Part shown: positions 48,236 to 64,000 of the stretch, piece after piece
How positions within the stretch are numbered: position 1 is the stretch's first letter
Layout: each line of letters starts with the position of its first letter
Assembly (NCBI GenBank): GCA_902793285.1
Contig: CADBCV010000004.1
Location: forward strand, 1-64,000
Source of the DNA: Oscillospiraceae bacterium
Lineage (GTDB): Bacteria > Bacillota > Clostridia > Oscillospirales > Oscillospiraceae
Reading direction: 5' to 3'
DNA length: 64,000 bases
Notes under the pieces: generated by a model
The model's input: only the letters and a program-made list of their open reading frames with translations
Told to the model about the DNA's origin: nothing
Databases searched by the model: none
Made by a program: the position numbers and the translations under genes

Positions 48236-48309
48236 GCGGGTGTAGTTCAATGGTAGAACACCAGCCTTCCAAGCTGGATACGTGGGTTCGATTCCCATCA
48301 CCCGCTCCA
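48236..48309 (+). tRNA. tRNA-Gly (TCC)
   Basis: Cloverleaf with acceptor GCGGGTG / CACCCGC, the anticodon loop CTTCCAA giving TCC, and the T-loop GGTTCGATTCC. The 3' CCA is encoded. Confidence 0.97.
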
Positions 48310-48374
48310 GCGTCAGAGGAAGCACGCGGCGTTCCGTTTCGGCGGCCTGCGAAAAGCTGGGCGGCAGCATATAT

Positions 48375-48451
48375 GCGCCAATAGCTCAGCAGGATAGAGC
48401 AACTGCCTTCTAAGCAGTAGGTCGGGGGTTCGAATCCCTCTTGGCGTGCCA
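48375..48451 (+). tRNA. tRNA-Arg (TCT)
   Basis: Cloverleaf with acceptor GCGCCAA / TTGGCGT (a G-T pair at the end), D-arm TAGCTCAGCAGGATAGAGCA, anticodon loop CTTCTAA giving TCT, and T-loop GGTTCGAATCC. The CCA is encoded. Confidence 0.95.
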
Positions 48452-48460
48452 GCGTCAGGA

Positions 48461-48572
48461 GAAACTTACTCCATTCCGCTTCCCCGGTTTCCGTAAGAGC
48501 CGGGAAAGCTCCATATCCGTAAGTTCCTCCTTCCTTTCAAACACAAACCCGCTCCGCTGGGCTTTGTGTTTG
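48461..48572. repeat. Structured tRNA-spacer element, copy 1
   Basis: About 76 conserved bases (GAAACTTACTCCATTCCGCT... to AGTTCCTCCTTCCTTT), bounded by complementary AACTTAC / GTAAGTT, are followed by a hairpin with arms CAAACACAAA / TTTGTGTTTG (48538-48572). A second copy is at 48925-49036. Read on the minus strand, both copies are open for about 40 codons (ERKEELTDMELSRLLRKPG here), but a protein is less likely than an RNA or DNA structure. Confidence 0.75.
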
Positions 48573-48716
48573 GCGAGAGAAGCCATTACGAGCCGTCTTT
48601 GCGCGGCGCGTGGTTTTAAGATAGCCTCTCCGAAAGGGGAGCGCGGCAGGAAAACAACTTCGGGGCCTCGGTCCTGAGTTTGCATAGGACGCGCAGGGAT
48701 CTGCGCGGACAGATAT

Positions 48717-48793
48717 GGTGGGATTAGCTCAGTTGGTAGAGCACCGGATTGTGGTTCCGGGTGTCGTGGGTTCGAGCCCCATATCCCACCCCA
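48717..48793 (+). tRNA. tRNA-His (GTG)
   Basis: The extra 5' G of tRNA-His is present at 48717, opposite C73. The acceptor is GTGGGAT / ATCCCAC, the anticodon loop TTGTGGT gives GTG, and the CCA is encoded. Confidence 0.96.
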
Positions 48794-48839
48794 CTAAAAA
48801 GCCGAGGCCGGCGGCGCCGGCCCCGGTTTTCTTCTTCGA

Positions 48840-48913
48840 TGGGATGTAGTGTAATGGTAACACACCGGACTTTGACTCCGATATAGTGGGTTCGAGTCCC
48901 GCCATCCCAGCCA
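48840..48913 (+). tRNA. tRNA-Gln (TTG)
   Basis: Acceptor TGGGATG / CATCCCA, anticodon loop CTTTGAC giving TTG, T-loop GGTTCGAGTCC and encoded GCCA end. The outermost anticodon-stem pair is a C-A mismatch. Confidence 0.94.
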
Positions 48914-48924
48914 CCACGTCAGAA

Positions 48925-49036
48925 GAAACTTACTCCATTCCGCTTCCCCGGTTTGCGTAAGAGCCGGGAAAGCTCCAGATCCGTAAGTTCCTTCTTCCTT
49001 TCCAAATCGAAACCGCTTCGCTGGGTTTCGATTTGG
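48925..49036. repeat. Structured tRNA-spacer element, copy 2
   Basis: Same layout as 48461-48572, with about 90% identity over the first 76 bases. The following hairpin has different arms (CCAAATCGAAACC / GGTTTCGATTTGG, 49002-49036) that still pair perfectly over 13 bp. Sequence changed but pairing kept is evidence for a selected structure. Confidence 0.75.
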
Positions 49037-49096
49037 TGGGTGACGTTCCAACCCTTTTGCAAAACCGAAGACCAGCAAAGCATGTTCCGACGACAT

Positions 49097-49172
49097 GCCC
49101 CAGTAGCTCAGGCGGTAGAGCACCTGCCTTTTAAGCAGGGTGTCCGGGGTTCGAGTCCCCGCTGGAGCACCA
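49097..49172 (+). tRNA. tRNA-Lys (TTT)
   Basis: Anticodon loop CTTTTAA giving TTT, T-arm CGGGGTTCGAGTCCCCG and encoded CCA. The acceptor arms GCCCCAG / CTGGAGC pair except for a C-A mismatch at the third position. It is the last tRNA before the prophage and a candidate attachment site. Confidence 0.94.
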
Positions 49173-49177
49173 AAGGA

Positions 49178-49318: not shown

Positions 49319-49999
49319 TCAGCAACCGGCGACGTCCTCGGCGTACTCCACAATGCGCTGCCGGAACTCCGGCGTCTTGATGCCGGTGATCTCGTCGTGC
49401 TCCCAGTACCCGTCGTGCGCCATGGCAAGCTGCAGCATCTTGACGGTCAGATCGTCGCTGATCTGGATGCCGGACACGGCAGCCGGGGCGGCCTGCTGCG
49501 TGGGTACTTCGCCGTCCGGGATCTGCGCCTCAAATTCGAGCGCGTACTTGTAGCGCGCAGCCATGTTCTTGACCTGGGGGTTCTCGTAGACATACAGCAC
49601 CACGCGCACGCATTCCTCCAGATCGTCCGAGGTGGACACCGTCTGCCAGACAGAGGGGAAGTCCTCCTTCATCTCCTTGATGATGAAGTGGGCCTGCATG
49701 TACTCGTCGCCGATGGAGGTGCCCTTGTTCATGGCATAGGCAAGGAGCTTGCGCTTGCGCTTGGAGTCCGTCCACTGCGCGTAGCCGTAGCCGACGTCGT
49801 CGGTGCAGAAGCGCTCCAGAAACTCAGGGTTACCGGTATCGACGGCAGCGGTGTACTGATCATCGTCGAAGTGGTAGCTGTCCTGGGCGTTGTTGCCGCG
49901 CATCAGGCCCTCGGCCCGGATGTTGGCCATGGTACCCAGGGCGCCGGCACGGGTCATGCCGTTGGCGCGGAAAATGTTGTACAATTCAAGATCTTTCAT
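49319..49999 (-). CDS. Phage lysozyme/endolysin (Phage_lysozyme2-like)
   Basis: 226 aa. The first ~140 residues match the phage tail-lysozyme fold: NGMTRAGALGTMANIRAEG near 14-32 with a likely catalytic Glu, then GYGYAQWTDSKRKRKLLAYA near 70-89 and a final FIIKEMKEDFPSVW helix. The last ~75 residues contain an Ala/Pro linker and a small domain ending IVEYAEDVAGC that may bind the cell wall. Its place after the holin fits a lysis enzyme. It is the last prophage gene before the tRNAs. Confidence 0.85.
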   Translation of the reverse strand: MKDLELYNIFRANGMTRAGALGTMANIRAEGLMRGNNAQDSYHFDDDQYTAAVDTGNPEFLERFCTDDVGYGYAQWTDSKRKRKLLAYAMNKGTSIGDEYMQAHFIIKEMKEDFPSVWQTVSTSDDLEECVRVVLYVYENPQVKNMAARYKYALEFEAQIPDGEVPTQQAAPAAVSGIQISDDLTVKMLQLAMAHDGYWEHDEITGIKTPEFRQRIVEYAEDVAGC

Positions 50000-50279: not shown

Positions 50280-50888
50280 TCAGTCCTCCTCGTCCAGCAG
50301 GCCGGACACGTCCTTGTAGTCCATGTCCTCCTTCAGCTCGGCATAGGGGTCGCCGGGGAGCTCATGCTGCGGCTTGTACTCGTCCTCCTCGGCCTCGTCG
50401 GGCGTGTCCACTGTGGACATTTGGGGGGTACCGCCGTCTTTGTCGTCGCCGTCGCCCTTGTCCTCACTTTTGCGGCGCAGCACTTCAAAGGCGTTCTTGA
50501 GGGCCGGCGGGTAGGGGACGCCCATGATACCCAGGTTCTCCAGGATGCTCATGCCGTCGTTGGCTGCAAAAAACAGGATGGTGGCCGTGCGCATGGCGGT
50601 GGTGCTTGCCAGCTTGTCCAGCTCCGCCGCAATCATGACGATCAGCACGATCACGCCCTTGCGGATCAGGCCCTTGAAGCCGGCGCGGGACTCATAGCCG
50701 CCGGTGGCCGTCTTGGGGCTCTTGTGCCACACGGCCGCGCACAGCGCGCCGGTCAGGTAGTCGATGGCCATGGCCCATGCCAGCAGCTGCGTCAGCTGAT
50801 CCCAGCCGCCCAGGTACTGAGAGGCGACGCCGCCGATGGCGGCAATCCCGGCCAAAACGGTGTAGTAGATGCTTTTTGCGCTGTTCAT
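50280..50888 (-). CDS. Phage holin
   Basis: 202 aa, holin_4/Cp-1 type. Membrane segments near 10-28, 36-52 (LAWAMAIDYLTGALCAAV) and 75-95 are followed by the conserved NDGMSILENLGIMGVPYPPALKNA segment near 108-132. A long acidic Lys/Asp tail ends the protein (about 140-202), longer than in most family members. It forms the membrane lesions that let the lysozyme reach the wall. Confidence 0.88.
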   Translation of the reverse strand: MNSAKSIYYTVLAGIAAIGGVASQYLGGWDQLTQLLAWAMAIDYLTGALCAAVWHKSPKTATGGYESRAGFKGLIRKGVIVLIVMIAAELDKLASTTAMRTATILFFAANDGMSILENLGIMGVPYPPALKNAFEVLRRKSEDKGDGDDKDGGTPQMSTVDTPDEAEEDEYKPQHELPGDPYAELKEDMDYKDVSGLLDEED

Positions 50889-51165: not shown

Positions 51166-51504
51166 TCACACCTCCAGATCGATGCCGCTCAGGGCGGCGA
51201 TGTATTCCACATCCGCCTGCACCTGGCGCAGCGTCTTGTCCCGTGCCGGCTGCCAAGCAGCCGCGTACTCAAACCACGCCTCCGGATCCTCCTGGATCTC
51301 GCTGACGGTGGGGCAGTCCTCCGGTGCCAGTGTCATGTATGCCTCATCGCATACCCACTGGCGGCCCTTCTCCTGCCGGTCTCCCGTCTCGATTATGGTT
51401 TCCTCCTCCCGGATGTTGTCGCGGATCCAGATATCCCGGATCGCGCCCCGACTGGCAATGCAGATCTCAGCAGGCCGGTCGGCGGAAATGCTTACGCTGC
51501 GCAT
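51166..51504 (-). CDS. Hypothetical phage protein overlapping the reverse transcriptase end
   Basis: 112 aa; the start is the Met of MRSVSISADRP, with a perfect AAGGAGG 8 bases upstream, and it overlaps the reverse transcriptase by 13 bases. The N-terminal third looks like beta strands (AEICIASRGAIRDIWIRDNI), and the C-terminal half is helical (ARDKTLRQVQADVEYIAALSG). I do not recognise it. It is not obviously the four-helix accessory protein Avd, but it is coupled to the retroelement and could belong to it or to the tail fibre. Confidence 0.75.
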   Translation of the reverse strand: MRSVSISADRPAEICIASRGAIRDIWIRDNIREEETIIETGDRQEKGRQWVCDEAYMTLAPEDCPTVSEIQEDPEAWFEYAAAWQPARDKTLRQVQADVEYIAALSGIDLEV

Positions 51505-52718
51505 CTCAGATCCCTCCTTGTCTGTGCGCCGAGTATGTTCCCCGCAAGCTGCTGCGTGCCCTTGATGTTGATGCACGCGGGATCCTTACGCCTGGCGGGC
51601 CTCAGGTGCAAGATCCTGGCCGCCTTGAAGTACCCGTAGTACGCGCCGATGCGGTACAGGGTGATGCGCGTGCGGTCGCCGCGCCATACTTTGCGGAAAC
51701 TCCGCCGGGCGCGCAGGAAAACGCGCCGCCGGATCTTGAGCCGGCCCTTCGCCGTGATCACATAGCCCATCATGTCGATGGGCGCGTCCACATGTCGGCG
51801 GACATGCCAGGTGTCCTTGATCGTGAGGCCGAAGCTGTCCCGCATGTAGCGGATCAGCTTTCGCACCGCCATGACGAGGTTGCGGCGGTCAGCCCCGGCC
51901 AACAGAATGTCGTCCATGTAGAACAGGGCGCAGCTGACAAGCCTGACGGCCTTGCCGCGCCGCTCCTTGTGCAGGCCCATGACAAAGCGGTAGGCGTAGC
52001 TCATGAAGTAGTTGCAGAGGAATTGAGACAGGAGGCTGCCGATGATGAGCCCGTCGCCGTGCATCTTGAGCAGCTCGTCCACAAACCACAAGAGCAGCAC
52101 GTTCTTGCCAATGTCCCGGCGCAGCCACCGCATGGCGGTCTCGCGCGTGATGCTCTGAAAGCACTTGCGGATGTCCAGCTTCACAAAGTGCTTGGTCTTG
52201 CCGCGCTTTGTCCATTTAAGGATCCGCCGGGCGCCCTTGAGCTGGCCCTTGCCCCGGATGCTGGCGTACTGGTGGTACTCGTACTTCGCCGCCCAGAGCT
52301 CCTCCATGCAGCCGACGGCGACATGCTCCATCAGCTGCTGCATCACGCTCATGAGGCCGATCTTCCTGACCTTGCGGCACATGCCGTCGTGGCGCTCGGA
52401 ATAGCGCACCGGCGGCAGATCCAGACGCCGGGCACGGATGCGGCCGGCGATGTCCAGGGCGATCCAGTGCAGCGCCTGCTCCAGCTCCGGGTACCAGGTG
52501 ACGGCGGCGCGGGCGCGCTTGCGGATCTCCTTGGCCGAGAGGGGACAGTAGCCGGCCACAAACTCGCTGTAGTCCTTGCGCTTGAGCTTGCCGGTCATGG
52601 CCTCATAGGCGTAGCGCTCAATGGTCTGCAGATCTGTAGGATCTGCCCGTTTGCAATATGTTTTCAAGGGATGTCTCCCTTCATGTGCTTTTTGAATCTC
52701 AGGGTCGTTCGGTTCCAT
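51492..52718 (-). CDS. Diversity-generating retroelement reverse transcriptase
   Basis: 408 aa. The palm has LDIRKCFQSI (catalytic Asp182), the DGR-type motif IGSLLSQ at 226-232 in place of the retron or retroviral form, and the catalytic FYMDD at 266-270. An RGKG motif (155-158) lies upstream and a basic C-terminal thumb (about 300-408) ends the protein. It copies the TR RNA into mutagenised cDNA. It lies 157 bases downstream of the TR, the usual order target-VR-TR-RT. No frame damage is visible, so it may be active. Confidence 0.93.
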   Translation of the reverse strand: MEPNDPEIQKAHEGRHPLKTYCKRADPTDLQTIERYAYEAMTGKLKRKDYSEFVAGYCPLSAKEIRKRARAAVTWYPELEQALHWIALDIAGRIRARRLDLPPVRYSERHDGMCRKVRKIGLMSVMQQLMEHVAVGCMEELWAAKYEYHQYASIRGKGQLKGARRILKWTKRGKTKHFVKLDIRKCFQSITRETAMRWLRRDIGKNVLLLWFVDELLKMHGDGLIIGSLLSQFLCNYFMSYAYRFVMGLHKERRGKAVRLVSCALFYMDDILLAGADRRNLVMAVRKLIRYMRDSFGLTIKDTWHVRRHVDAPIDMMGYVITAKGRLKIRRRVFLRARRSFRKVWRGDRTRITLYRIGAYYGYFKAARILHLRPARRKDPACINIKGTQQLAGNILGAQTRRDLRCAA

Positions 52719-52875
52719 CTACTAAACCCATGCGCGGCCAGATATCCGCCGCGCATCCGGGGAGCGGTCACCCGTCCCCGGTGCCGGTACGACGCATTTT
52801 CGCCGCAGCGCGGGAAGGGCAGTGCGGGAGGGCAGGCGCCCTCTGCCTTTGTTGCGTCAAACATTATTTAAAAAT
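52719..52875 (-). ncRNA. TR-RT spacer, probable part of the DGR template RNA
   Basis: 157 bases between the TR and the reverse transcriptase gene, GC-rich and able to form several short hairpins. In studied DGRs the RNA 3' of the TR is required for priming by the reverse transcriptase. A 66-codon open frame starting at 52864 crosses it but shows no protein features. Confidence 0.5.
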
Positions 52876-52982
52876 CCGCCCGCCGATGTTCCAGTTCGCG
52901 TTCGAGAGCGCGTTGTTGCCGTTGCCGCAGGAGAGGCCAGCATTGCCCAGACCGTTGTTCAGGTTGCCCCAGCGCAGCCACT
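52876..52982 (-). repeat. DGR template repeat (TR)
   Basis: 107 bases matching the VR at 93 positions. Read in the VR frame it encodes ten Asn codons (nine AAC, one AAT), at the positions matching residues 746, 748, 749, 753, 760, 762, 763, 767, 769 and 771 of the target. AAY codons cannot turn into stops by changes at the adenines, a known design of DGR templates. The 3' end shared with the VR is the GC-rich ATCGGCGGGCGG. Confidence 0.95.
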
Positions 52983-53021
52983 GACAAGCAGGACCACCAG
53001 CGGATGCGCTGCCAATCCCCG

Positions 53022-53038
53022 CCCGGTCATAGACCGGG
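53022..53038. other. Hairpin between VR gene and TR
   Basis: CCCGGTC / GACCGGG with an ATA loop, 39 bases upstream of the TR 5' end on the transcribed strand. It may end the target-gene transcript or shape the 5' part of the template RNA. Confidence 0.55.
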
Positions 53039-53059
53039 GCTTGTTGTTCAGTTCATTGT

Positions 53060-53098
53060 GAGGGGACGTTCGTCCCCTCTATCAGGCTGCCGCCTGAT
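53060..53098 (-). other. Tandem hairpins downstream of VR (retrohoming signal candidates)
   Basis: Two adjacent stems: GAGGGGAC / GTCCCCTC with a GAAC loop on the coding strand (53060-53079), and ATCAGGC / GCCTGAT with a GGCA loop (53081-53098). The second overlaps the target stop codon. A GC-rich hairpin with a 4-base loop just downstream of the VR is known to raise retrohoming in the Bordetella phage DGR. Confidence 0.7.
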
Positions 53099-55451
53099 AT
53101 TCACCCCTGTTCCCGGTCACGGAAAGCCGCCCGCCGATGTACCAGGTCGCGTTCCCGAGCCCGTTGTGGCCGGCGCTGCAGGAGAGGCCAGCATCGCCCA
53201 GACCGTTGACCAGGGAGCCCCAGCGCAGCCACTCGCGCACCGCGTTGGCGCTGTATTTTTCGATGTAGAAACCGTCGCGGGTACCGCTGGTGGAGCTACC
53301 GCCGAGCACGCTGCCGAGCATGACCTCCGGCAGAGCCGCATCGTGGCCGAGGCGCTTGGGGTACTGCCAGCTGTTCGATGCCGGGCAGGGCGTGCCATAG
53401 GCACAGGTCTTGTAGTCAGCCGTGACGCCGGTGCCGATCTTCGAGGCGTCGCGGCAGACGTGCGCCACCTCACAGTTGACGTCGCCCGAAACCTCATAGC
53501 GCAGGATCGTGTCGCCCATGACCTCATAGCAGCCGCTGAGGATCTCGATGCCCTGCAGCTTGACGGGGTAGCGGTCGTTCAGGGGGTTGATGCCGCCGTC
53601 GTTGCCCAGGACGTCATCCGTGGAGCCGGTGTGCCACTGGTAGGTGTAGAGGTAGTAGGTGGTGGCGCTGTCGAAGGTGTTGCCGCCGTTGTCCACATAA
53701 ACCGCGCCGTAGCTGACGCCGTCGATCTCGACAGTCTCGATCTGCACGATGCGCACACGATCCAGCAGGGCCGTCTGCTGGGCTTTATCGCCGTTTCTGC
53801 CCGCGGCGGTACCCACGCACACGCAGGAGCCGACGATCAGGTTGGCGGCCTGGCCCGGGGTCAGGAGCACGCGCTCCACGCCGGCCTCGCCCAGGGCAAG
53901 CTGATAGGTGTAGTTATAGTTCACGCAGCCGTGCAGGATCCGGTCGGAGTCGAGCTGCGCGTACTTGAGGTAAAGCATGATCTTGAGGAAAGCGTCGTCG
54001 GTGCTGGTGGCCGCGCAGTAGCGGCTGCCCCATACGGCGCGCACCTGCGTCCGGGCGGTATTGTGGGAAACGTCCCACACTCTGAGCGGCACGCCGCTGC
54101 AGCTGCCCCATGTGTCGCCGGCGCCGTACTTGCAGTGCACCACCCAGCTGCGCACCGCGTTGTCCTTGAGCTCCACGGCCTCCGGCAGCGGGGCAAAGCC
54201 CTCGGCCTCCAGCTGATCCGTGTAGTCAAAGCCAAACACGTCCTCCTCCTCGACAAAGTGCATCCAGCCGGTCATCTGCATGCAGCAGACGATCTTTGCC
54301 GGGTCGCTGCGCTGGAAGCCGCCGGCGATGCCGTCGATGGCGGTGACGTGGGGCTTGCCGTCGGCGTCCAGGGTGACGTTGCAGTCCACCACCGCAAACA
54401 GCGGCAGGGCCGCGTAATCGTCGCGGTTGGCCTCCGTGGTGGTGCTGGGCGTGCAGCTCAGACCGGCGTTGTCCCCGGTCTTGGTGCCGTCTGAGGACAT
54501 CGTGACGCCCTCCTCCGGCTGCGAAAAGCGCACGCCGCCCGTCCAGCCGGTGCGGGAAAGCTTGTACCAGCGGTCGCACAGATCGGACAGATCTGTCAGC
54601 AGCAGCGCGCCGTTGGCCAGGAAGAAGCTGCGCATCGTGGCCTTGTACTCGCCGCCGCCGGACAGGATCGCCGCGTACAGCGCATCGTCGCGGGCGTTGA
54701 CGGCCTCCTTGCTGTAGACGGCGTCGCTGTCAGCCTTCTGGCCGAGTGCTTCGGTCACAACCCTGTTTTGCACGGGGTTTTCGCTGTCAGGGTCAAGCGC
54801 GTCGTCGACATCGTCATCCTGCAGGGCCGAGGCCGCAAGGCCCAGGGCGGCGCGCACGGCCTCGGCAAGGTCAGAGGCCGGGATGCCGCCTGCGGGCTTG
54901 GCGTACTTCGCGTTCACGTCCTCAGTGCCGGCCTTGCCGGCAAGGGCCGTGTGCACGGCGCCGCTGGTGATGAGGCGGACGCTGGCCGCCGTCGGGGCGG
55001 TGTCGGGCGTCATCCACGCGCCGTCGGAGCCGAGGTACATGCCTCCTGCAGCCGGGGCCGGGACGATGCCGGCTGCGCCTGCCTCCTGGCCGGACGCGCC
55101 GCGAAACGCCACGTAATTGGCGCTGTCGAGCTTGTCGCCCAGCGCGGTGAATACGCCGCCGCTCTTGACGGGGTTGTCGCTGCCGCTGGTGGGGACGTCG
55201 TCAAAGGTGAGCTTGTCCTGCTTGGCCGGGTCCGGGCAGTAGGCGCGCAGCACGGCGCCGTTGGTGAGCGTCAGCTTGAGCGCGCCGGGGTATGCAGTCT
55301 GCTCAGGGTCGGCCTCGAAGCTGGCCACCGATCCCAGCAGGCCCTTGAGCAGGGAAAAGGGGATCTGATAGCTGTGAGTCCCGTCGTCGACAACCAGCAC
55401 GTCGGAATCATAGACCTGTTCCTTGCGCGGCAGTTCGGTTATGAGTGCCAT
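53082..55451 (-). CDS. DGR target: variable phage tail/receptor-binding protein
   Basis: 789 aa. The N-terminal part (1-110) looks like a fibre attachment domain. The middle has Ala/Asp-rich repeats (SGAVHTALAGKAGTEDVNAKY; ALQDDDVDDALDPDSENPVQNRVVTEALGQK) typical of fibre shafts. The C-terminal ~200 residues end in a C-type-lectin-like domain with EWLRWG...NGLG.AGLSC and WYIGGRLS, the scaffold of DGR variable proteins. The VR covers W741-R775. Variable side chains lie between conserved Gly, Trp and Cys residues. It should bind host surface molecules. Confidence 0.93.
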   Translation of the reverse strand: MALITELPRKEQVYDSDVLVVDDGTHSYQIPFSLLKGLLGSVASFEADPEQTAYPGALKLTLTNGAVLRAYCPDPAKQDKLTFDDVPTSGSDNPVKSGGVFTALGDKLDSANYVAFRGASGQEAGAAGIVPAPAAGGMYLGSDGAWMTPDTAPTAASVRLITSGAVHTALAGKAGTEDVNAKYAKPAGGIPASDLAEAVRAALGLAASALQDDDVDDALDPDSENPVQNRVVTEALGQKADSDAVYSKEAVNARDDALYAAILSGGGEYKATMRSFFLANGALLLTDLSDLCDRWYKLSRTGWTGGVRFSQPEEGVTMSSDGTKTGDNAGLSCTPSTTTEANRDDYAALPLFAVVDCNVTLDADGKPHVTAIDGIAGGFQRSDPAKIVCCMQMTGWMHFVEEEDVFGFDYTDQLEAEGFAPLPEAVELKDNAVRSWVVHCKYGAGDTWGSCSGVPLRVWDVSHNTARTQVRAVWGSRYCAATSTDDAFLKIMLYLKYAQLDSDRILHGCVNYNYTYQLALGEAGVERVLLTPGQAANLIVGSCVCVGTAAGRNGDKAQQTALLDRVRIVQIETVEIDGVSYGAVYVDNGGNTFDSATTYYLYTYQWHTGSTDDVLGNDGGINPLNDRYPVKLQGIEILSGCYEVMGDTILRYEVSGDVNCEVAHVCRDASKIGTGVTADYKTCAYGTPCPASNSWQYPKRLGHDAALPEVMLGSVLGGSSTSGTRDGFYIEKYSANAVREWLRWGSLVNGLGDAGLSCSAGHNGLGNATWYIGGRLSVTGNRGEYQAAA
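53127..53233 (-). repeat. DGR variable repeat (VR)
   Basis: Aligned without gaps to the TR at a constant offset of 251 bases. Fourteen differences: ten at TR adenines on the coding strand (plus positions 52890, 52895, 52917, 52922, 52923, 52944, 52958, 52959, 52964, 52965) and four elsewhere (52904, 52905, 52910, 52926). Seven of ten template Asn codons now encode Ser, Val, Asp, Ala, His, Thr and Tyr. It ends in the shared GC-rich segment that serves as the initiation of mutagenic homing. Confidence 0.95.
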
Positions 55452-55469: not shown

Positions 55470-55817
55470 TCAGTGCCATTCCAGGACGCGGGCGGTGGTC
55501 TGAAAGTAGATCACTTCGCCCTCCGGCGTCGTGATGGTGTCGCCGCCGTGCCGCGTCCAGGGCGTGCGCCCGCCGACGGCCTCCATCAGGGACGCCACCT
55601 GGTCGGCGATCTTCTCGATGCCGAGATCCTTCAGCGTCAGCCCGTGGGGGTTGCCGGTGGTGCGGCTGTGTTCCCACGCCGTCAGGCCCTGGTCGCCGTA
55701 AAAGGCGTCCTCATGATTCGTGCCCAGAATGGGCACCTGGTTCAATTTCTCGCAGATCCGGTGCAGCAGCTTCGAGCTGCCGGTGTAACTGATCTTGAAG
55801 TTAAGCACCGCCGCCAC
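55470..55817 (-). CDS. Phage tail/baseplate protein
   Basis: 115 aa. The segment TTGNPHGLTLKDLGIEKIADQ near 53-73 is a motif seen in phage fibre and baseplate proteins where subunits trimerise. The rest is short and unfamiliar. It overlaps the upstream structural gene by 17 bases and precedes the DGR target by 18 bases, so it probably helps attach or fold the variable fibre. Confidence 0.7.
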   Translation of the reverse strand: MAAVLNFKISYTGSSKLLHRICEKLNQVPILGTNHEDAFYGDQGLTAWEHSRTTGNPHGLTLKDLGIEKIADQVASLMEAVGGRTPWTRHGGDTITTPEGEVIYFQTTARVLEWH

Positions 55818-57312
55818 CGCCCTCGCCGCCGCCGGAATCGTCGCCCTGGCCCTCGTCCTCCTCGTCGTCGATGTCCGTGAGGGTGTAGACGATCTTCATG
55901 GTCTCCGCCGGCGTCTTGACGATCTCCGAGGCGAGGTTGTTGATGGTGCCGAGGTAGTTGGCCGCCCACATGCGGGTAAACCATTCGCCGCTGGAGTTGG
56001 AGCTGGAGTAGCCCCACGCCGTGAGGTCGTCGTCGTTCGTCCAGAAGTAGCCGCTGTACTTCTGATCGCCGCCGTGGTTGCTGCTCGTGCCGCTGTAGGA
56101 GTAATCCGGCAGCACCACCGTCCCGTCCGGGTACAGCACGCCGTAGAGATAGGCGTAGCCGGTGGCGGTGTAGTGGTAGACCTCAAAGTAGATCGCGCCC
56201 TCGTGCGCGGCACAGAACTGGATGTTGGTGATGTAGTCGGGGTTTTCGTCCGCAAAGACGCGGATGGGCGTATAGGACGCGGGGTTATTCAGCGGGATTT
56301 TGTAGATCAGCTTGCGGTTGGAGGAAATGCGGTACAGAATGCCCTTATGGACGTGGCCACACCAGCGGTTCGCCCAGTACATGTAGTTGGCGCTTTGGGC
56401 GAAGTAGTTGCCGTAGTTGCTGAGGTACTGCGTGTCGCTCCGGTCGTAGCTGCCATCGCCGTAGTTGACCGTGAAGTAGGTGATGCCGTATGGATAGTCG
56501 CAGTAGGTTAGGCCGCTCTTGCCATAGGCCATGCAGTAGATCAGGCCGTCGTGCCCGTCCTCATAGAACTGCGCGTCGTCGGCGTAGACGTAGAGGTCGC
56601 GGCCGTTCTCGCGCGCCTCATAGTCGCGCTGGGAGTTGTAGTAGGTCAGCACCGTCAGCAGCGTGCTCCAGGACGCCACCAGCTCCATGCTGCGCGCCAC
56701 GTCGGAGAAATCGCCCACGCCCATGCGCAGCATGGGGATCTTCGCCCGCGCCATGCGCATGACGTGGGTCTCGCTGTTGCCCTTGAGCATGTAGACATAC
56801 TCGCCGTCGTACCGGATCGGGCGCCAGCCCTGATCCGTGTTGGGCACGCCGTCGGACGTGGAGCCGGCGGTCGGGGCGTTGTACCAGAAAAGGGGATCCC
56901 GCCCGGCGTGGGCCGAGGTTCTGGCCACGGCCTTGATGCTGCCGTTGGCCTGCCCGGTGCCGAAATCCCAGACGGAGATGTAGCCGGTCAGGGTCTTGCC
57001 GCTCTCGATGGCGTTGTAGCTGCCGCGATATTTGTCCACGGCGTTCACGTCCTGCCCGGCATAGCCCACCAGGTGCGCGGCAGCGGGAAAGTGGATGTTG
57101 TCCGCGTCCTCCTCCAGCTGCCCGTCAAAGAGCATGATGCCGCCCAGGGCGTTGGTGGCAAAGGGGAGCACGTAGGAGTTGAGCGCGTAGTTCATGGCCA
57201 CGTTGATGTTGATGAGCTTGTCCAGGGCGTTGGTGATCAGGTTCTCGTCCTCATACACCCGTGTCTTGCCGGTTTCCACATTGCGCAGAATAATGGTCGT
57301 TTTTCCCTTCAT
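55801..57312 (-). CDS. Phage tail structural protein with Tyr/Asp-rich repeats
   Basis: 503 aa. The N-terminus (KTTIILRNVETGKTRVYEDENLITNALDKLI) resembles tail proteins that start with a beta strand and a NLITN turn. The middle is full of Tyr, Trp and Asp pairs suggesting a beta propeller (GNYFAQSANYMYWANRWCG). It ends in an acidic DDEEDEG run and a poly-Gly tail. The Met at 57312 is chosen by its GGAGGGAGAC site. The function within the tail tip is unknown. Confidence 0.75.
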   Translation of the reverse strand: MKGKTTIILRNVETGKTRVYEDENLITNALDKLININVAMNYALNSYVLPFATNALGGIMLFDGQLEEDADNIHFPAAAHLVGYAGQDVNAVDKYRGSYNAIESGKTLTGYISVWDFGTGQANGSIKAVARTSAHAGRDPLFWYNAPTAGSTSDGVPNTDQGWRPIRYDGEYVYMLKGNSETHVMRMARAKIPMLRMGVGDFSDVARSMELVASWSTLLTVLTYYNSQRDYEARENGRDLYVYADDAQFYEDGHDGLIYCMAYGKSGLTYCDYPYGITYFTVNYGDGSYDRSDTQYLSNYGNYFAQSANYMYWANRWCGHVHKGILYRISSNRKLIYKIPLNNPASYTPIRVFADENPDYITNIQFCAAHEGAIYFEVYHYTATGYAYLYGVLYPDGTVVLPDYSYSGTSSNHGGDQKYSGYFWTNDDDLTAWGYSSSNSSGEWFTRMWAANYLGTINNLASEIVKTPAETMKIVYTLTDIDDEEDEGQGDDSGGGEGGGGGA

Positions 57313-57313
57313 C

Positions 57314-58864
57314 TTAGTCTCCCTCCAGATATTCCACGCGGATCGCGGACACCCATGCGTTCTTCCACATCCAGGCGCGGATCGTGAGCGTGTTGTTTGT
57401 GAGCATCGGCGTCCAGTCGTCGCTGTCAAGGATCTCCAGCCGGCGCTTGACGCAGCCGTCGCCGCCCTCCGTGACGGCGACCCATCCGTCCTCGTACTTG
57501 TACCAGGTCGCGCCGCCGTCGAAGCTCACGTTCCAGAGCGTGGTCTCCGGGTCGGCCGGGATGGTGATATAGGCAAGGGCCTTGCGCAGCGTGACGGTCG
57601 GGTAGGTCACCAGCTGCGGCAGGGGCGGCACGCCTGTCAGCGTCGCCTCAAACGGCCGCGGCGCCAGGTAATGCTGCTGCCCCTGGTCGTCTTCGTAACC
57701 CTCTTTGGTCCAGTACATGATGCTCGGAGACTGGAGGTCGGTCAGCATATCCTCCTCCGGAAAGCTGTCGAAGGAGTAATCCCGGAAAACCTGCGCTGTC
57801 AGCTCGTGTACGCCCAGGTTCCGGCGGCTGCCGTCATCGTTCTGCCCATAGAAGACGCCGGCGTTATCCCTGCACAGAAAGCCCCAGATCCTCTTCCAGA
57901 CGGCGTATACATCGTTCACCGTGCCGTTGAGTATCGCCGGCAGCGGCATACCGTGCCCGGCGTAGTCGCGCGTCGGGTAGACCGCCGTGAAGCTCGCAGG
58001 CGCGGTGTCGAAGCCGACAAACTCATACTTGCGCCCCAGCCGGTCGCTTGGGTGGTCGAAGGGCTGCTTTGCAGAATAGTCCGTCTGCGGCACACTGAGA
58101 GCCTGCACATCCCCGAGTAGCAGCTTCGGCACATATCCGGGCCAGGACTGCCAGACCCGGAACAGCGTCTGGCCGATCTCCGGTCCCGCGAGGAAGTCCG
58201 TCTCCGTCTGCGAATAGAAATAGCTGTCTGTGACGGCGTCGTACAGGCAGACGCGCCCCTCTTCATCCAGGGCTGGGAAGAAATCACGCACCGGGCATTC
58301 GACAAGATAGGTTCGGCCGTCCTTTACAGTGGGCACAAGATCTGAGAGAGTGCACCGATAAAGCTGCATGCAGGCAAGATCCACCGCACCTGCATCGTAG
58401 TCATGGCAGGCGAAGAGGTACATCGTCGCGGGAAACGAGAACCGGGATCCAGTTTGAAACGTTTTCGACTCGCTCTGCAGCCCCTCGCCGGTCCCATATG
58501 TGAGCCGGGCCAGGGCAGGGAAGCCCTCTACCGAGTTCACACGGCCGTACAGCTCGCACGATATGCGCCAGGTGACCTCAGTGTCCTTCTTGAGGTTCGC
58601 GGCCCATGTCTCGTATGCGTCTCCGGGGTTTCTTGTGCCCGTGGTGATTTGCACCTGCATGGCCCCGCGACTGCCCTCAGCAAAGCGCATAACCATGCGG
58701 TAGCCGTTGCCTTTGCGCGTCCCGAAGAAGGCGGCCGCGTTGTCGGTCGGCTCTGTGACCCGGGCCTCCATGGTGACGGAAGCATGGCTGGAGAGCTGCA
58801 CTGCGGTATCAATGAACTGATGACCGTCGGAGGCGATGTATTCCAGAAATTTTGGCGTTTTCAT
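57314..58864 (-). CDS. Phage tail-tip protein with lectin-like N-terminal domain
   Basis: 516 aa, started at the MKTPKF Met. Residues 5-200 (YIASDGHQFIDTAVQL, then alternating strands to LACMQLYRCTL) look like a concanavalin/LamG-type jelly roll common in Firmicutes phage fibres. The C-terminal third has FDGGATWYKYEDGWV, a small repeat also present in the 780-aa neighbour (FDDGETWWYWSDGWT). It ends one base before the 503-aa protein starts. A role in host binding is inferred. Confidence 0.75.
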   Translation of the reverse strand: MKTPKFLEYIASDGHQFIDTAVQLSSHASVTMEARVTEPTDNAAAFFGTRKGNGYRMVMRFAEGSRGAMQVQITTGTRNPGDAYETWAANLKKDTEVTWRISCELYGRVNSVEGFPALARLTYGTGEGLQSESKTFQTGSRFSFPATMYLFACHDYDAGAVDLACMQLYRCTLSDLVPTVKDGRTYLVECPVRDFFPALDEEGRVCLYDAVTDSYFYSQTETDFLAGPEIGQTLFRVWQSWPGYVPKLLLGDVQALSVPQTDYSAKQPFDHPSDRLGRKYEFVGFDTAPASFTAVYPTRDYAGHGMPLPAILNGTVNDVYAVWKRIWGFLCRDNAGVFYGQNDDGSRRNLGVHELTAQVFRDYSFDSFPEEDMLTDLQSPSIMYWTKEGYEDDQGQQHYLAPRPFEATLTGVPPLPQLVTYPTVTLRKALAYITIPADPETTLWNVSFDGGATWYKYEDGWVAVTEGGDGCVKRRLEILDSDDWTPMLTNNTLTIRAWMWKNAWVSAIRVEYLEGD

Positions 58865-61628: not shown

Positions 61629-64000
61629 CTATCCGCGCAGCGGGCTCATGCCCGTCCGGTTGATGGCACGGTTGTTCTGCCGTACCATGATGTTGAACAG
61701 CCTCTCGCCGTCCACCTCGGTGTTGATCTCGTGCCCGGCAAGGACAGCGTCGTAAAGCATCTCCAGCAGGCCCAGGACGCCGTTCATGCTCTCCTCGCCG
61801 CTGAAGGACACATCCCCGTCGGCCGTCGGGAAGTTGCGGTCCAGACCCTCGTAGGCTTTGCTGGTGGAAAGCGCATCCGGGGTCATGGCGTCGATAAGAC
61901 TATCCGCCATGCCGGTTGCTTCTTCCAGGATCTCCGGCATCCCTGAGCGTAGGCCCTTCAAGGCGCCGCGGTCCACGTTGTACGTGATGTCTTCGGCTAC
62001 TGTCGAGGGGCTGTGCACGCCCAGGGCGTTGCGCACGGCCTCGGTGCAGCGCCGGACGAAGTCAACAACTTCGTTCCAGATCGTAGACATGAGGGAGCGC
62101 AGGCCGTTCAGGAAGCCCTGCATCAGATTGACGCCGATGGAGTACCAGCTGACGCTTGCAAGATAGTTTGTCGCCGTCTGGATCGTCTGCGTGATGTGGG
62201 AATGCAGGCTCGTAAAGATGGATTTGCAACTGGAAAGCATAGCGTTCCACTGGGCGATGGCCGTGGTCTTCGCCTGCGTCACCGCCGTGACGATGGCCGT
62301 CTTCGCCGTCGTGATCGCCGTCTCGACCGTGGTCTTGATGGCTGCGAACGTCGCCGCCGTGTGTGCCTTGAGCTGCTCCCAGTGCTGCTTCACCATAGCG
62401 GCGGCGTTCTGGGCCGTCGTGGTGATCAGCGTGACCGCCGCCACGAAAAAGTCGCGGATTGCGCCGCCGATGGTCGTGGCGAGGTTCAAGGATTCCTGTA
62501 AAAGGATGCTGAGTTCCGTCTTTACCTGGTTAAAGCCCTGCACGATCCAGTCAATGACAGCTGAAATAGCGGGGGTTATTGTACTTTCCCACCAGGCGTT
62601 TATCTCGTCGGAATACTGGTACAGCCATAGGGCGAAATCGGCGATCCCTGCGATTGCAAGCGGTATCCACGATCCGGTCAGGGCTGCGATTGCGATGCCT
62701 ACGGCGCCGATGCCCGCTTCAAGAGACCTAAAGGATTGCGTCGTGAGCTCCCCGGTTCTATACCATTCGAGGCCCGCTGTTACGGCCATAGTTAAGCCGC
62801 CAGCGAGCAAGCCGATGCTTGCGCCAGCCTTCCCGAAAGCCGAGGCGAGTCCGAGCGTCAGCATAGCGGTGCCGCCTATCATATCGATTAAGCTGCTCCA
62901 GCTGACGCCGTCCTTCCAGGAGCGGAAAGCGCCTTTTACAAGGAAAGCCGCGCCCTCTAAAAAGGCAACGAGGGAAAGAGTGTCTTTGAGGCCCAATTTA
63001 AGCCCTTGCGCGATCTTCCACCCGGCAATAGCCGTCCCCACGCCGAGCGCTACATTCGCAAGGTCGTTCATGTGGGTCTTGATGCCGGTCACGATCTTCT
63101 CCAGCCACGGCAGGCCCTCCTGCGCGGTATCAAGGCCCTCGCTCAGACCGCCGAGCATGGAGCTCGTGGAGCTGCTGGTGTCGTCTGCTTGCGTCTGCGT
63201 CTGATCCTCTTCGTTGTCCTTGCCGCCGAGGATGTTCAGCGTGTCGAAGCCCATGAGCGTGCGCTTGAGCTCCTTCGCCGTGGTGACGGCCTCGTCGAGA
63301 TCCTCCGTGACCTCGCCGACGCCGGTGCTCACCGTCTGCCACCCGGTCAGGCTCGATGTGGAGCCGAAAACCTTGTTCAGACTGACGGCTGCCTTGTTGG
63401 CGAAGTTTGCGATCCGCTCCAGCACGTCCGCCACTTTCCACAAAAGCGGCAGCAGCAGCACGCCGATCAGGCGCACGCACTCGCCGGACTTCTCCCTGAT
63501 GTCGCCCAGGGTGTTGCTGAGCTGCTTCATGCGGCCGGTGGGGGTGCTTGCCAGCGCCCGGTTCATCCCGCCGACGCTCTGGTTGATCACCCTTGCCAGC
63601 GTGGCCGCGCGATCCTCCTCGGTGCCGTATTTGAGGATCTTCTCCTGGGCCTCGGTAAACGAATAGCCCAGCCGGCTCAGAGCGCCGACCTGGCCGTTCA
63701 TGACCTTGCCCAGCATGGTCGCAATATTGGTGGCGTTCTCAGCCGAGGCCGAAAAGCCGTACTGCTGCGCCACCATGTCGTTCATGACCGGGATGAGCTT
63801 TTTCAGCGTCCTGCTCTGGGTCAGATAGGTCGCAAGCTTCTGCGCGCCGGACAGCTGCACCTCGTCGCCGATGATGCCGAGCCGCTGCTGGGCGCTGCAC
63901 AGGTCCAGGACGCTCTGGATCTCGCGGTTTCTGGCCTTCATGGTGTTGCGCATGACGGTTGCCAGCTTCATCTCGTTCTCGGCCTGCTCGTCGTAGGCTT
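61629..64000 (-). CDS. Phage tape measure protein (partial)
   Basis: The last ~790 residues of a tail-length tape measure protein. The frame stays open to the window end beyond the Met at 63971 (AYDEQAENEM precedes it), so the true start lies outside. It shows long helical stretches, a hydrophobic central zone (GLASAFGKAGASIGLLAGGLTMAV near residues 375-400) and the usual GVHSPSTV near the C-terminus. The conserved SRLGYSFTEAQEKIL segment is near 105-120. Confidence 0.9.
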   Translation of the reverse strand, partial: AYDEQAENEMKLATVMRNTMKARNREIQSVLDLCSAQQRLGIIGDEVQLSGAQKLATYLTQSRTLKKLIPVMNDMVAQQYGFSASAENATNIATMLGKVMNGQVGALSRLGYSFTEAQEKILKYGTEEDRAATLARVINQSVGGMNRALASTPTGRMKQLSNTLGDIREKSGECVRLIGVLLLPLLWKVADVLERIANFANKAAVSLNKVFGSTSSLTGWQTVSTGVGEVTEDLDEAVTTAKELKRTLMGFDTLNILGGKDNEEDQTQTQADDTSSSTSSMLGGLSEGLDTAQEGLPWLEKIVTGIKTHMNDLANVALGVGTAIAGWKIAQGLKLGLKDTLSLVAFLEGAAFLVKGAFRSWKDGVSWSSLIDMIGGTAMLTLGLASAFGKAGASIGLLAGGLTMAVTAGLEWYRTGELTTQSFRSLEAGIGAVGIAIAALTGSWIPLAIAGIADFALWLYQYSDEINAWWESTITPAISAVIDWIVQGFNQVKTELSILLQESLNLATTIGGAIRDFFVAAVTLITTTAQNAAAMVKQHWEQLKAHTAATFAAIKTTVETAITTAKTAIVTAVTQAKTTAIAQWNAMLSSCKSIFTSLHSHITQTIQTATNYLASVSWYSIGVNLMQGFLNGLRSLMSTIWNEVVDFVRRCTEAVRNALGVHSPSTVAEDITYNVDRGALKGLRSGMPEILEEATGMADSLIDAMTPDALSTSKAYEGLDRNFPTADGDVSFSGEESMNGVLGLLEMLYDAVLAGHEINTEVDGERLFNIMVRQNNRAINRTGMSPLRG

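Follow-up and report, generated by a model that had tools for sequence, protein, structure and literature searches.

Does the reverse transcriptase cassette in the tail region of a gut clostridial prophage make up a complete diversity-generating retroelement (DGR), is this element at work, and does its template survive that work? The locus lies in the first 64,000 nucleotides (C4:1-64000, the window) of contig CADBCV010000004.1 from an Oscillospiraceae genome (GCA_902793285.1; 2.36 Mb, 57 contigs, 79.5% complete), on the minus strand of a 40.6-kb prophage whose integration site is a tRNA-Lys gene. The original prediction, made from the sequence letters, had described a target gene with a variable repeat (VR) at its 3′ end, a downstream template repeat (TR) and a reverse transcriptase (RT) with the motifs IGSLLSQ and YMDD, all on one strand; each of these was located on the minus strand and both motifs were found (Table 1). 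The DGR identity, prophage location, tail-region target and intact-looking cassette were likewise upheld by an RT tree, attachment (att) repeats, an integrase gene and a fold match. We hold with high confidence that the cassette is a complete phage DGR of known type, for which a homing mechanism is proposed below. The element extends the DGRs with natural evidence of activity by one phage lineage from gut Clostridia, and bears on the larger question of what keeps a template intact when a DGR produces many mutated copies of it.

Cassette anatomy and adenine specificity

The TR and VR, located by an alignment that weighted all mismatches equally, aligned without gaps over 107 bases with mismatches at 10 of 22 TR adenines and 4 of 85 other bases, exactly the counts given earlier. 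Extended to 111 bases, the alignment displayed mismatches at 11/23 adenines and 4/88 other bases (Fisher p = 2.4e-6), with 7 of the 10 TR Asn codons altered in the VR. Ungapped matches of the TR in the window were the TR itself (111/111), the VR (96/111) and a background of at most 55/111, and across all contigs of its own genome the TR matched only itself and the one VR, plus a single 18-bp match (E 0.54). The base following a GC-only run common to both repeats was C in 12/12 listed VRs and A in 12 of the 13 listed TRs (T in L019), a difference like that between the initiation of mutagenic homing sites IMH and IMH*. The extra A-to-C mismatch of the 111-base alignment need not be a product of mutagenesis, since it sits in this IMH/IMH*-like 3′ end.

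The hairpin behind the VR probably acts in homing. It agrees with what is published for hairpins after a VR (PMC3240598) in its stem length (7-10 bp), its GRNA loop and its spacing from the VR (4-34 bp); its stem is less GC-rich. Among the 20 loci surveyed, a hairpin of at least 6 bp followed the VR in 16, at exactly 23 nt in seven, three of these with a GRNA loop (window, L004, L032); a hairpin of the AGGGG/CCCCT type, like the second one of the window, was present in 16/20.

By analogy with known DGR biology, a TR-containing RNA with its 3′ spacer in a conserved fold would be copied by the DGR RT, which would misincorporate at TR adenines, and the resulting cDNA would take the place of the tail gene's 3′-terminal VR, with the GC run and IMH-like end, and probably the hairpin behind, as guides. 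About ten residues would be varied in this way in a C-type-lectin-like (CLec) tip of a tail protein that probably contacts the host; surface exposure and receptor binding are expected on the same grounds.

Table 1. Features of the DGR cassette and of the prophage around it (window positions, or contig C4 positions where marked; ORF, open reading frame).
Feature	Position	Strand	Remarks
DGR target gene, 789 aa	53082..55451	-	last large gene of the tail region; lysis genes follow
VR, 3′ end of target gene	53233..53123	-	in frame with target
GC-only run CGGCGGGCGG, common to VR and TR	53127..53136	-	followed by C in VR (53126), A in TR
Hairpin TATCAGGC-GGCA-GCCTGATA	53080..53099	-	23 nt past VR; holds target stop codon
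Second hairpin GAGGGGAC-GAAC-GTCCCCTC	53060..53079	-	terminator or alternative homing hairpin
TR, intergenic, near RT	52982..52872	-	23 adenines in 111 bases
Structured spacer RNA, TR-RT interval	52688..52859	-	overlaps annotated RT start; covarying
DGR reverse transcriptase, 408 aa as annotated	51492..52718	-	start possibly TTG 52667
Small ORF overlapping RT gene 3′ end	51166..51504	-	DUF6767 sub-threshold, 17 of 27 bits
Holin	50280..50888	-	Phage_holin_4_1 E 1e-31
Lysin	49319..49999	-	Pfam Phage_lysozyme2 ('phage tail lysozyme') E 4e-22
Tail tape-measure protein	61629..63971	-	phrog_58 E 2.6e-29
Attachment repeat, 50 bp	49125..49174	+	3′ end of tRNA-Lys 49097-49172
Second attachment repeat copy	C4 89696-89745		past window end; adjoins phage integrase gene
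Phage integrase gene	C4 88448-89626		Pfam Phage_integrase E 8.4e-16

Target protein

The target matched phrog_17147 (E 1.2e-119; function unknown) and the tail protein family phrog_5302 (E 2.2e-5). Pfam gave no domain in the target, nor any at E<0.04 in related sequences, PDB sequence searches with the target returned no informative match (its tip profile gave only two, E 0.13), and the seven phage records that matched it were all unannotated. Fold prediction of the C-terminus, a check proposed with the original prediction, was run on residues 287-789 with 26 sequences and yielded a model with pLDDT 87.4 and pTM 0.89. Its best PDB match is a DGR variable protein: of 350,542 PDB chains searched with Foldseek, only two matched at E<=0.001, both from 5vf4 (best E 2.4e-5, prob 1.00), the structure of TaqVP, which is the CLec-fold variable protein of a Thermus aquaticus DGR (PMC6328139). 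In BFVD, 33 viral models matched at E<=0.001, of which 12 bear the name tail collar fiber protein. With TaqVP as the best PDB match, the target is predicted to carry a CLec-fold variable domain, and gene order and fold together point to a receptor-binding, probably host-contacting tail protein.

Variable repeat change in sister phages

The DGR lineage is active in nature, as read from the sequences of near-clonal sisters, because these vary in the VR far more than elsewhere. Two sister phages, L004 (IMG/VR 3300031760_000196) and L005 (IMG/VR 3300032038_000713), have RTs 97% identical to that of the window and differ from each other at 13/110 TR positions, 17/110 VR positions and 1/20,621 positions outside both, with 17/17 VR differences at L004 TR adenines. 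Given in the same order (TR, VR, outside both), differences were 0/110, 14/110 and 20/6,396 for L009-L010, 0/110, 6/38 and 20/3,617 for L009-L011, 0/110, 4/38 and 0/3,926 for L010-L011, 0/117, 13/117 and 117/7,127 for the clonal part of L012-L013, and 0/110, 13/110 and 40/3,102 for L017-L019. L026-L027 differed at 2/109 (C/T, G/A), 18/109 and 195/6,132 positions, L007-L020, which at 91% are not near-clonal, at 0/110, 18/110 and 334/3,558, and L101-L102 (IMG/VR 3300010998_000167 and 3300011008_000040) at 0/119, 13/119 and 0/7,992. Over the 11 pairs compared, other similar pairs (e.g., L024/L025, L021/L023, L012/L015) being left out, the VR differed in nine and the TR was constant in nine. The fast change ascribed to the receptor-binding protein in the original prediction is supported in the sister phages, where the VR is far from invariant; for the window's own copy, activity is what we would infer from known DGR biology. 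The companion expectation of a constant TR fails in L005.

The TR/VR finder used for the relatives gave no pair for L006, L011, L015, L016, L018 and L023, in which the RT lies near a contig end, nor for L113, L116 and L117. A TR pattern matched three of 102 genus genomes (G000, G084, G049), the RT locus of G084 being identical in sequence to L032, 'Ruminococcaceae bacterium isolate RUG13571' (83/83 40-mers tested). Searches with a TR 3′-end pattern (three stretches) and a spacer pattern (four) found no extra TRs, all matches lying in known contigs.

Activity of the window's own copy

Several results weigh against the complete-DGR reading given above or qualify its support. Two of the 11 pairs displayed no VR change: L029-L031 (0/97 in TR, 0/97 in VR, 5/10,766 outside both) and L114-L115 (0/108, 0/108, 0/6,223). 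Pooled over 32 relatives, the VR differed at 495/814 TR adenines and 15/2,711 other bases, which speaks for a DGR, with the bias inflated by a finder that penalised adenine mismatches less; this pool left out L005, the partial pairs L012, L013, L017, L033, L034 and L096 and the duplicates L031 and L115, and counted both partners of near-clonal pairs. The clonal-pair counts are independent of finder scoring, with VR and TR intervals taken from the finder. As to the putative homing hairpin, stems of 5-9 bp also stand behind some TRs (window 6, L022 9). For the target, a first model of residues 561-789 was poor (pLDDT 52.4), the superposition on TaqVP, a shorter protein of 12-14% identity, was loose (rmsd 11.5-13.2, TM 0.35-0.45), and a profile comparison of the target with BPP-1 Mtd gave no match. 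Finally, no phage near-clonal to the window's prophage was found, and the four non-adenine mismatches suggest that the window VR predates the present TR.

Three of these four mismatches form one block, GGGCTCGGG in the VR and GCGCTCTCG in the TR. The VR block is identical to the TR of L007, L009, L010, L020, L033 and L035 (6 of the 12 other listed TRs, some mutually identical), and the TR block to the TR of L004 and L005. The simplest reading of these sequences is that the window TR was partly replaced after the last writing of the VR, and template turnover would then partly explain the four mismatches, because the VR block matches the TRs of other members. No listed TR fully explains the window VR, its own TR and that of L033 leaving four non-adenine mismatches each and the others more. 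An exact search of viral contigs with the conjectured older template (35 bases) returned no matches, so it is the shared block that carries the idea of an older template.

The same mismatches, three of them matching the TRs of other members as if the VR had been written from an older template, would also fit a real DGR that no longer fires in the window prophage, intact-looking but silent or decaying since the template change. We regard this as unlikely, if well short of negligible: the window RT, spacer RNA, TR and hairpin look intact, the two sister phages that share its RT so closely have differing VRs, and non-adenine mismatches are common, being found in 46.3% of TR-VR pairs in a published survey (PMC6642488).

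An altered template in L005

The TR of L005 (L005:4738-4847) differs from that of L004 at 13/24 adenines and 0/86 other bases, while the two phages are identical in the VR-TR interval, the spacer and the RT. Position 46 of the L005 TR may be an ancestral C and not a changed A, in which case the count is 12. Of the 110 bases of the L005 TR, 11 are still adenines (10%), against a minimum of 17% in the other 32 TRs. The L005 VR was written from an intact template, since it has no non-adenine mismatches against the L004 TR and 11 against its own. Within the 22-kb L005 record, an incomplete genome, matches were found solely at the TR and VR positions. Mutagenic homing into the TR and VR-to-TR recombination would both fit this change.

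For L005 only, an assembly chimera in which a VR variant was set between TR flanks is a minority explanation that keeps some weight, as L005 is a metagenome contig whose VR and TR are alike as far as position 17 on the 5′ side and, on the 3′ side, over the 11 bases that separate the last changed position from the TR-specific A. It is opposed by the near identity of L004 and L005 outside the two repeats and by the L005 TR core, which matches neither the L004 VR nor the L005 VR. In addition, L004 is a closed circle (39,873 bp without the repeat) whose exact 127-bp terminal repeat suggests assembly at k=127, and if L005 was assembled likewise, reads should hold the TR flanks together with the changed core.

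We tentatively prefer a real change of the template and propose, as a possibility of nearly even weight, that the DGR machinery of this lineage can also strike its own TR. On occasion, mutagenic cDNA or a recombining copy of the VR would enter the TR and erase adenines, as in L005; TRs would then be replaced by recombination, leaving traces of older templates in VRs, such as the three-base block of the window; and this branch, seemingly lacking Avd, would rely on its own class of spacer RNA. In the published account the TR stays unchanged and IMH mismatches set the direction of transfer (Guo et al., 2011; PMC3240598). Going by titles, abstract beginnings and term counts, no report of an altered DGR template was recognised among the open-licence papers listed, and none of the terms 'mutated template', 'loss of adenines' or 'TR decay' occurred in the matches listed. 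L004 and L005 look like a natural failure of template protection, which makes the question testable with reads.

Reverse transcriptase

The RT matched Pfam RVT_1 (E 3e-14) and PHROG 1423 'Reverse transcriptase' (E 2e-48), and its only PDB sequence match at E<=0.01 was to 8ub7 and sister entries, named 'Reverse transcriptase', which we take to be structures of the BPP-1 RT (bRT). In a midpoint-rooted tree of 44 rows, from which L028, L072 and L074 (no usable RT) and several near-duplicates were left out, the window RT fell in a 33-row clade (support 100/99) with BPP-1-like, Epona, crAss, vir525 and phage relatives. Five retron-type and six intron-type RTs, labels of our own drawn from NCBIfam matches (several below cut-off) and motifs, lay outside this clade; retr_L077 and BPP1like_L081 are on long branches and their exact placement is unsure. 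On its place in the tree, the window RT is a DGR RT; the grouping with retrons or group II introns that would have refuted the original prediction is not seen. A retron or group II intron RT beside a chance duplication is so improbable that we take it as refuted by the tree and the adenine specificity: the only NCBIfam families matched were group II RT (42 bits, cut-off 300) and retron RT (28 bits, cut-off 235), both far under cut-off, and PADLOC gave 14 matches to RT models of defence and CRISPR systems and similar (best a generic 'RT', E 1.4e-14), whereas the tree groups the window RT with DGRs, the mismatches are concentrated at adenines and TR/VR pairs adjoin the RT across the family.

The nearest phage records are distant: among 50,697 searched, 38 matched the RT, and identity stayed below 60% in all of these. 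Translation of the RT may begin 17 codons into the annotated ORF, since in L012, L014, L034 and L035 the earliest Met in the open RT frame lies at MKTYC/MKTWC and the window has a TTG at 52667 with GAAGGGAG upstream. Two genomes of the same genus carry, at G035:C274 and G039:C68 (L042, L044), a different RT of about 30% identity with an EAYMDDCG motif, placed on a long branch inside the DGR side of the tree. At G049:C26:2514-3713 (L040, the same place as L035) the RT-matching stretch has one TGA, seemingly just upstream of the RT ORF.

Spacer RNA and Avd

The TR-to-RT spacer is, on its pattern of substitutions, a covarying RNA structure. The fold has 38 pairs across 16 sequences, with 98.2% of cells pairing, compared to 34-45% in slid controls, and two-sided changes in 66 cells, compared to 19.5 in shuffles (0/500 reached 66), the structure having been derived from the same alignment as this test. 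One measure, further pair types, was not above shuffles (269/500).

The spacer had no Rfam match at gathering thresholds. A covariance model built from 14 sequences and run on 34 sources at E<=1, with E-values to be read as rough, matched 20 of these: the window (part of the model build), six close loci (L011, L016-L019, L035), ten distant loci with E 9e-24 to 1.5e-4 (L101, L021, L022, L111, L107, L086, L106, L108, L120, L024) and three weak ones (L026, L042, L109). All ten distant matches were on the correct strand and fell inside the TR-RT interval or at its edges, and the RNA was detectable in relatives with RTs merely ~30-48% identical. The model had no match in the BPP-1-like, Epona, crAss, vir525 and Arawn loci, nor in L029, L030, L036, L041, L043, L085, L114, L064 and L065. 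Under stricter filters it matched one of 394 genomes of the order, the window's own; plasmids gave no match.

Avd (PF22296) was not found at E<=1 in the window's own genome, 79.5% complete as it is, nor in the small ORF at the 3′ end of the RT gene, and was over cut-off in 0/14 records of relatives, the closed circle L004 included and most of the others perhaps fragments. The L013 record gave one 12-bit match; the BPP-1-like record, used as a control, gave 123 bits (2e-37). Missing Avd does not exclude membership among DGRs, because phage DGRs without Avd homologues are already known (Cornuault et al., 2018; PMC5883640). The conserved spacer RNA may offer a handle on cDNA initiation in such DGRs.

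Comparison with known systems

The BPP-1 DGR (mtd-avd-TR-brt) shares with the window its RT clade and, going by published BPP-1 features and the BPP-1-like record, a tail gene whose 3′ end holds the VR, change specific to adenines, and a hairpin behind the VR that contains the stop codon. It differs in the presence of avd, in an RT that is 27% identical over half its length, and in the spacer and target comparisons given above. Faecalibacterium phage FP_Epona displays a similar order of target, RT, small ORF, further genes, holin and endolysin and likewise has no Avd (Cornuault et al., 2018; PMC5883640), and its target C-terminus aligned with the C-terminal profile of the window target at an hhalign probability of 93.9%; its RT, however, is 24% identical, its spacer lacks a model match and it is listed as a myovirus. 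L004 and L005 are far closer, differing from the window in their VRs and, in L005, in the template altered at adenines. Phage DGR clades 1, 4 and 6 of Roux et al. (2021; PMC8144416) are among the closest known systems, and the same study reports signs of recent activity in 50-75% of DGRs in every group, with viral DGRs highest. A rumen prophage mentioned in PMC11080232, in which an RT gene occurs together with a gene that lacks annotation and is under diversifying selection, is possibly a system of the same kind.

Prophage setting

The surroundings are those of a temperate prophage by their gene content, with att repeats, integrase, tail genes and lysis genes present, and the order between the att repeats is tape measure, tail genes, DGR, holin and lysin. 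Positions ~20,885-20,935 of L004 matched both ends of the window prophage, as expected of attP. The gene at 55801-57429 (-), next to the target, encodes 542 aa assigned to phrog_19291 (function unknown) and appears by eye rich in Asn, Tyr and Trp; a second VR-like match to the TR was not found in it. Five tRNA genes (Gly, Arg, His, Gln, Lys) are clustered at window positions 48236-49172, just outside the prophage, which has its attachment site at the 3′ end of tRNA-Lys.

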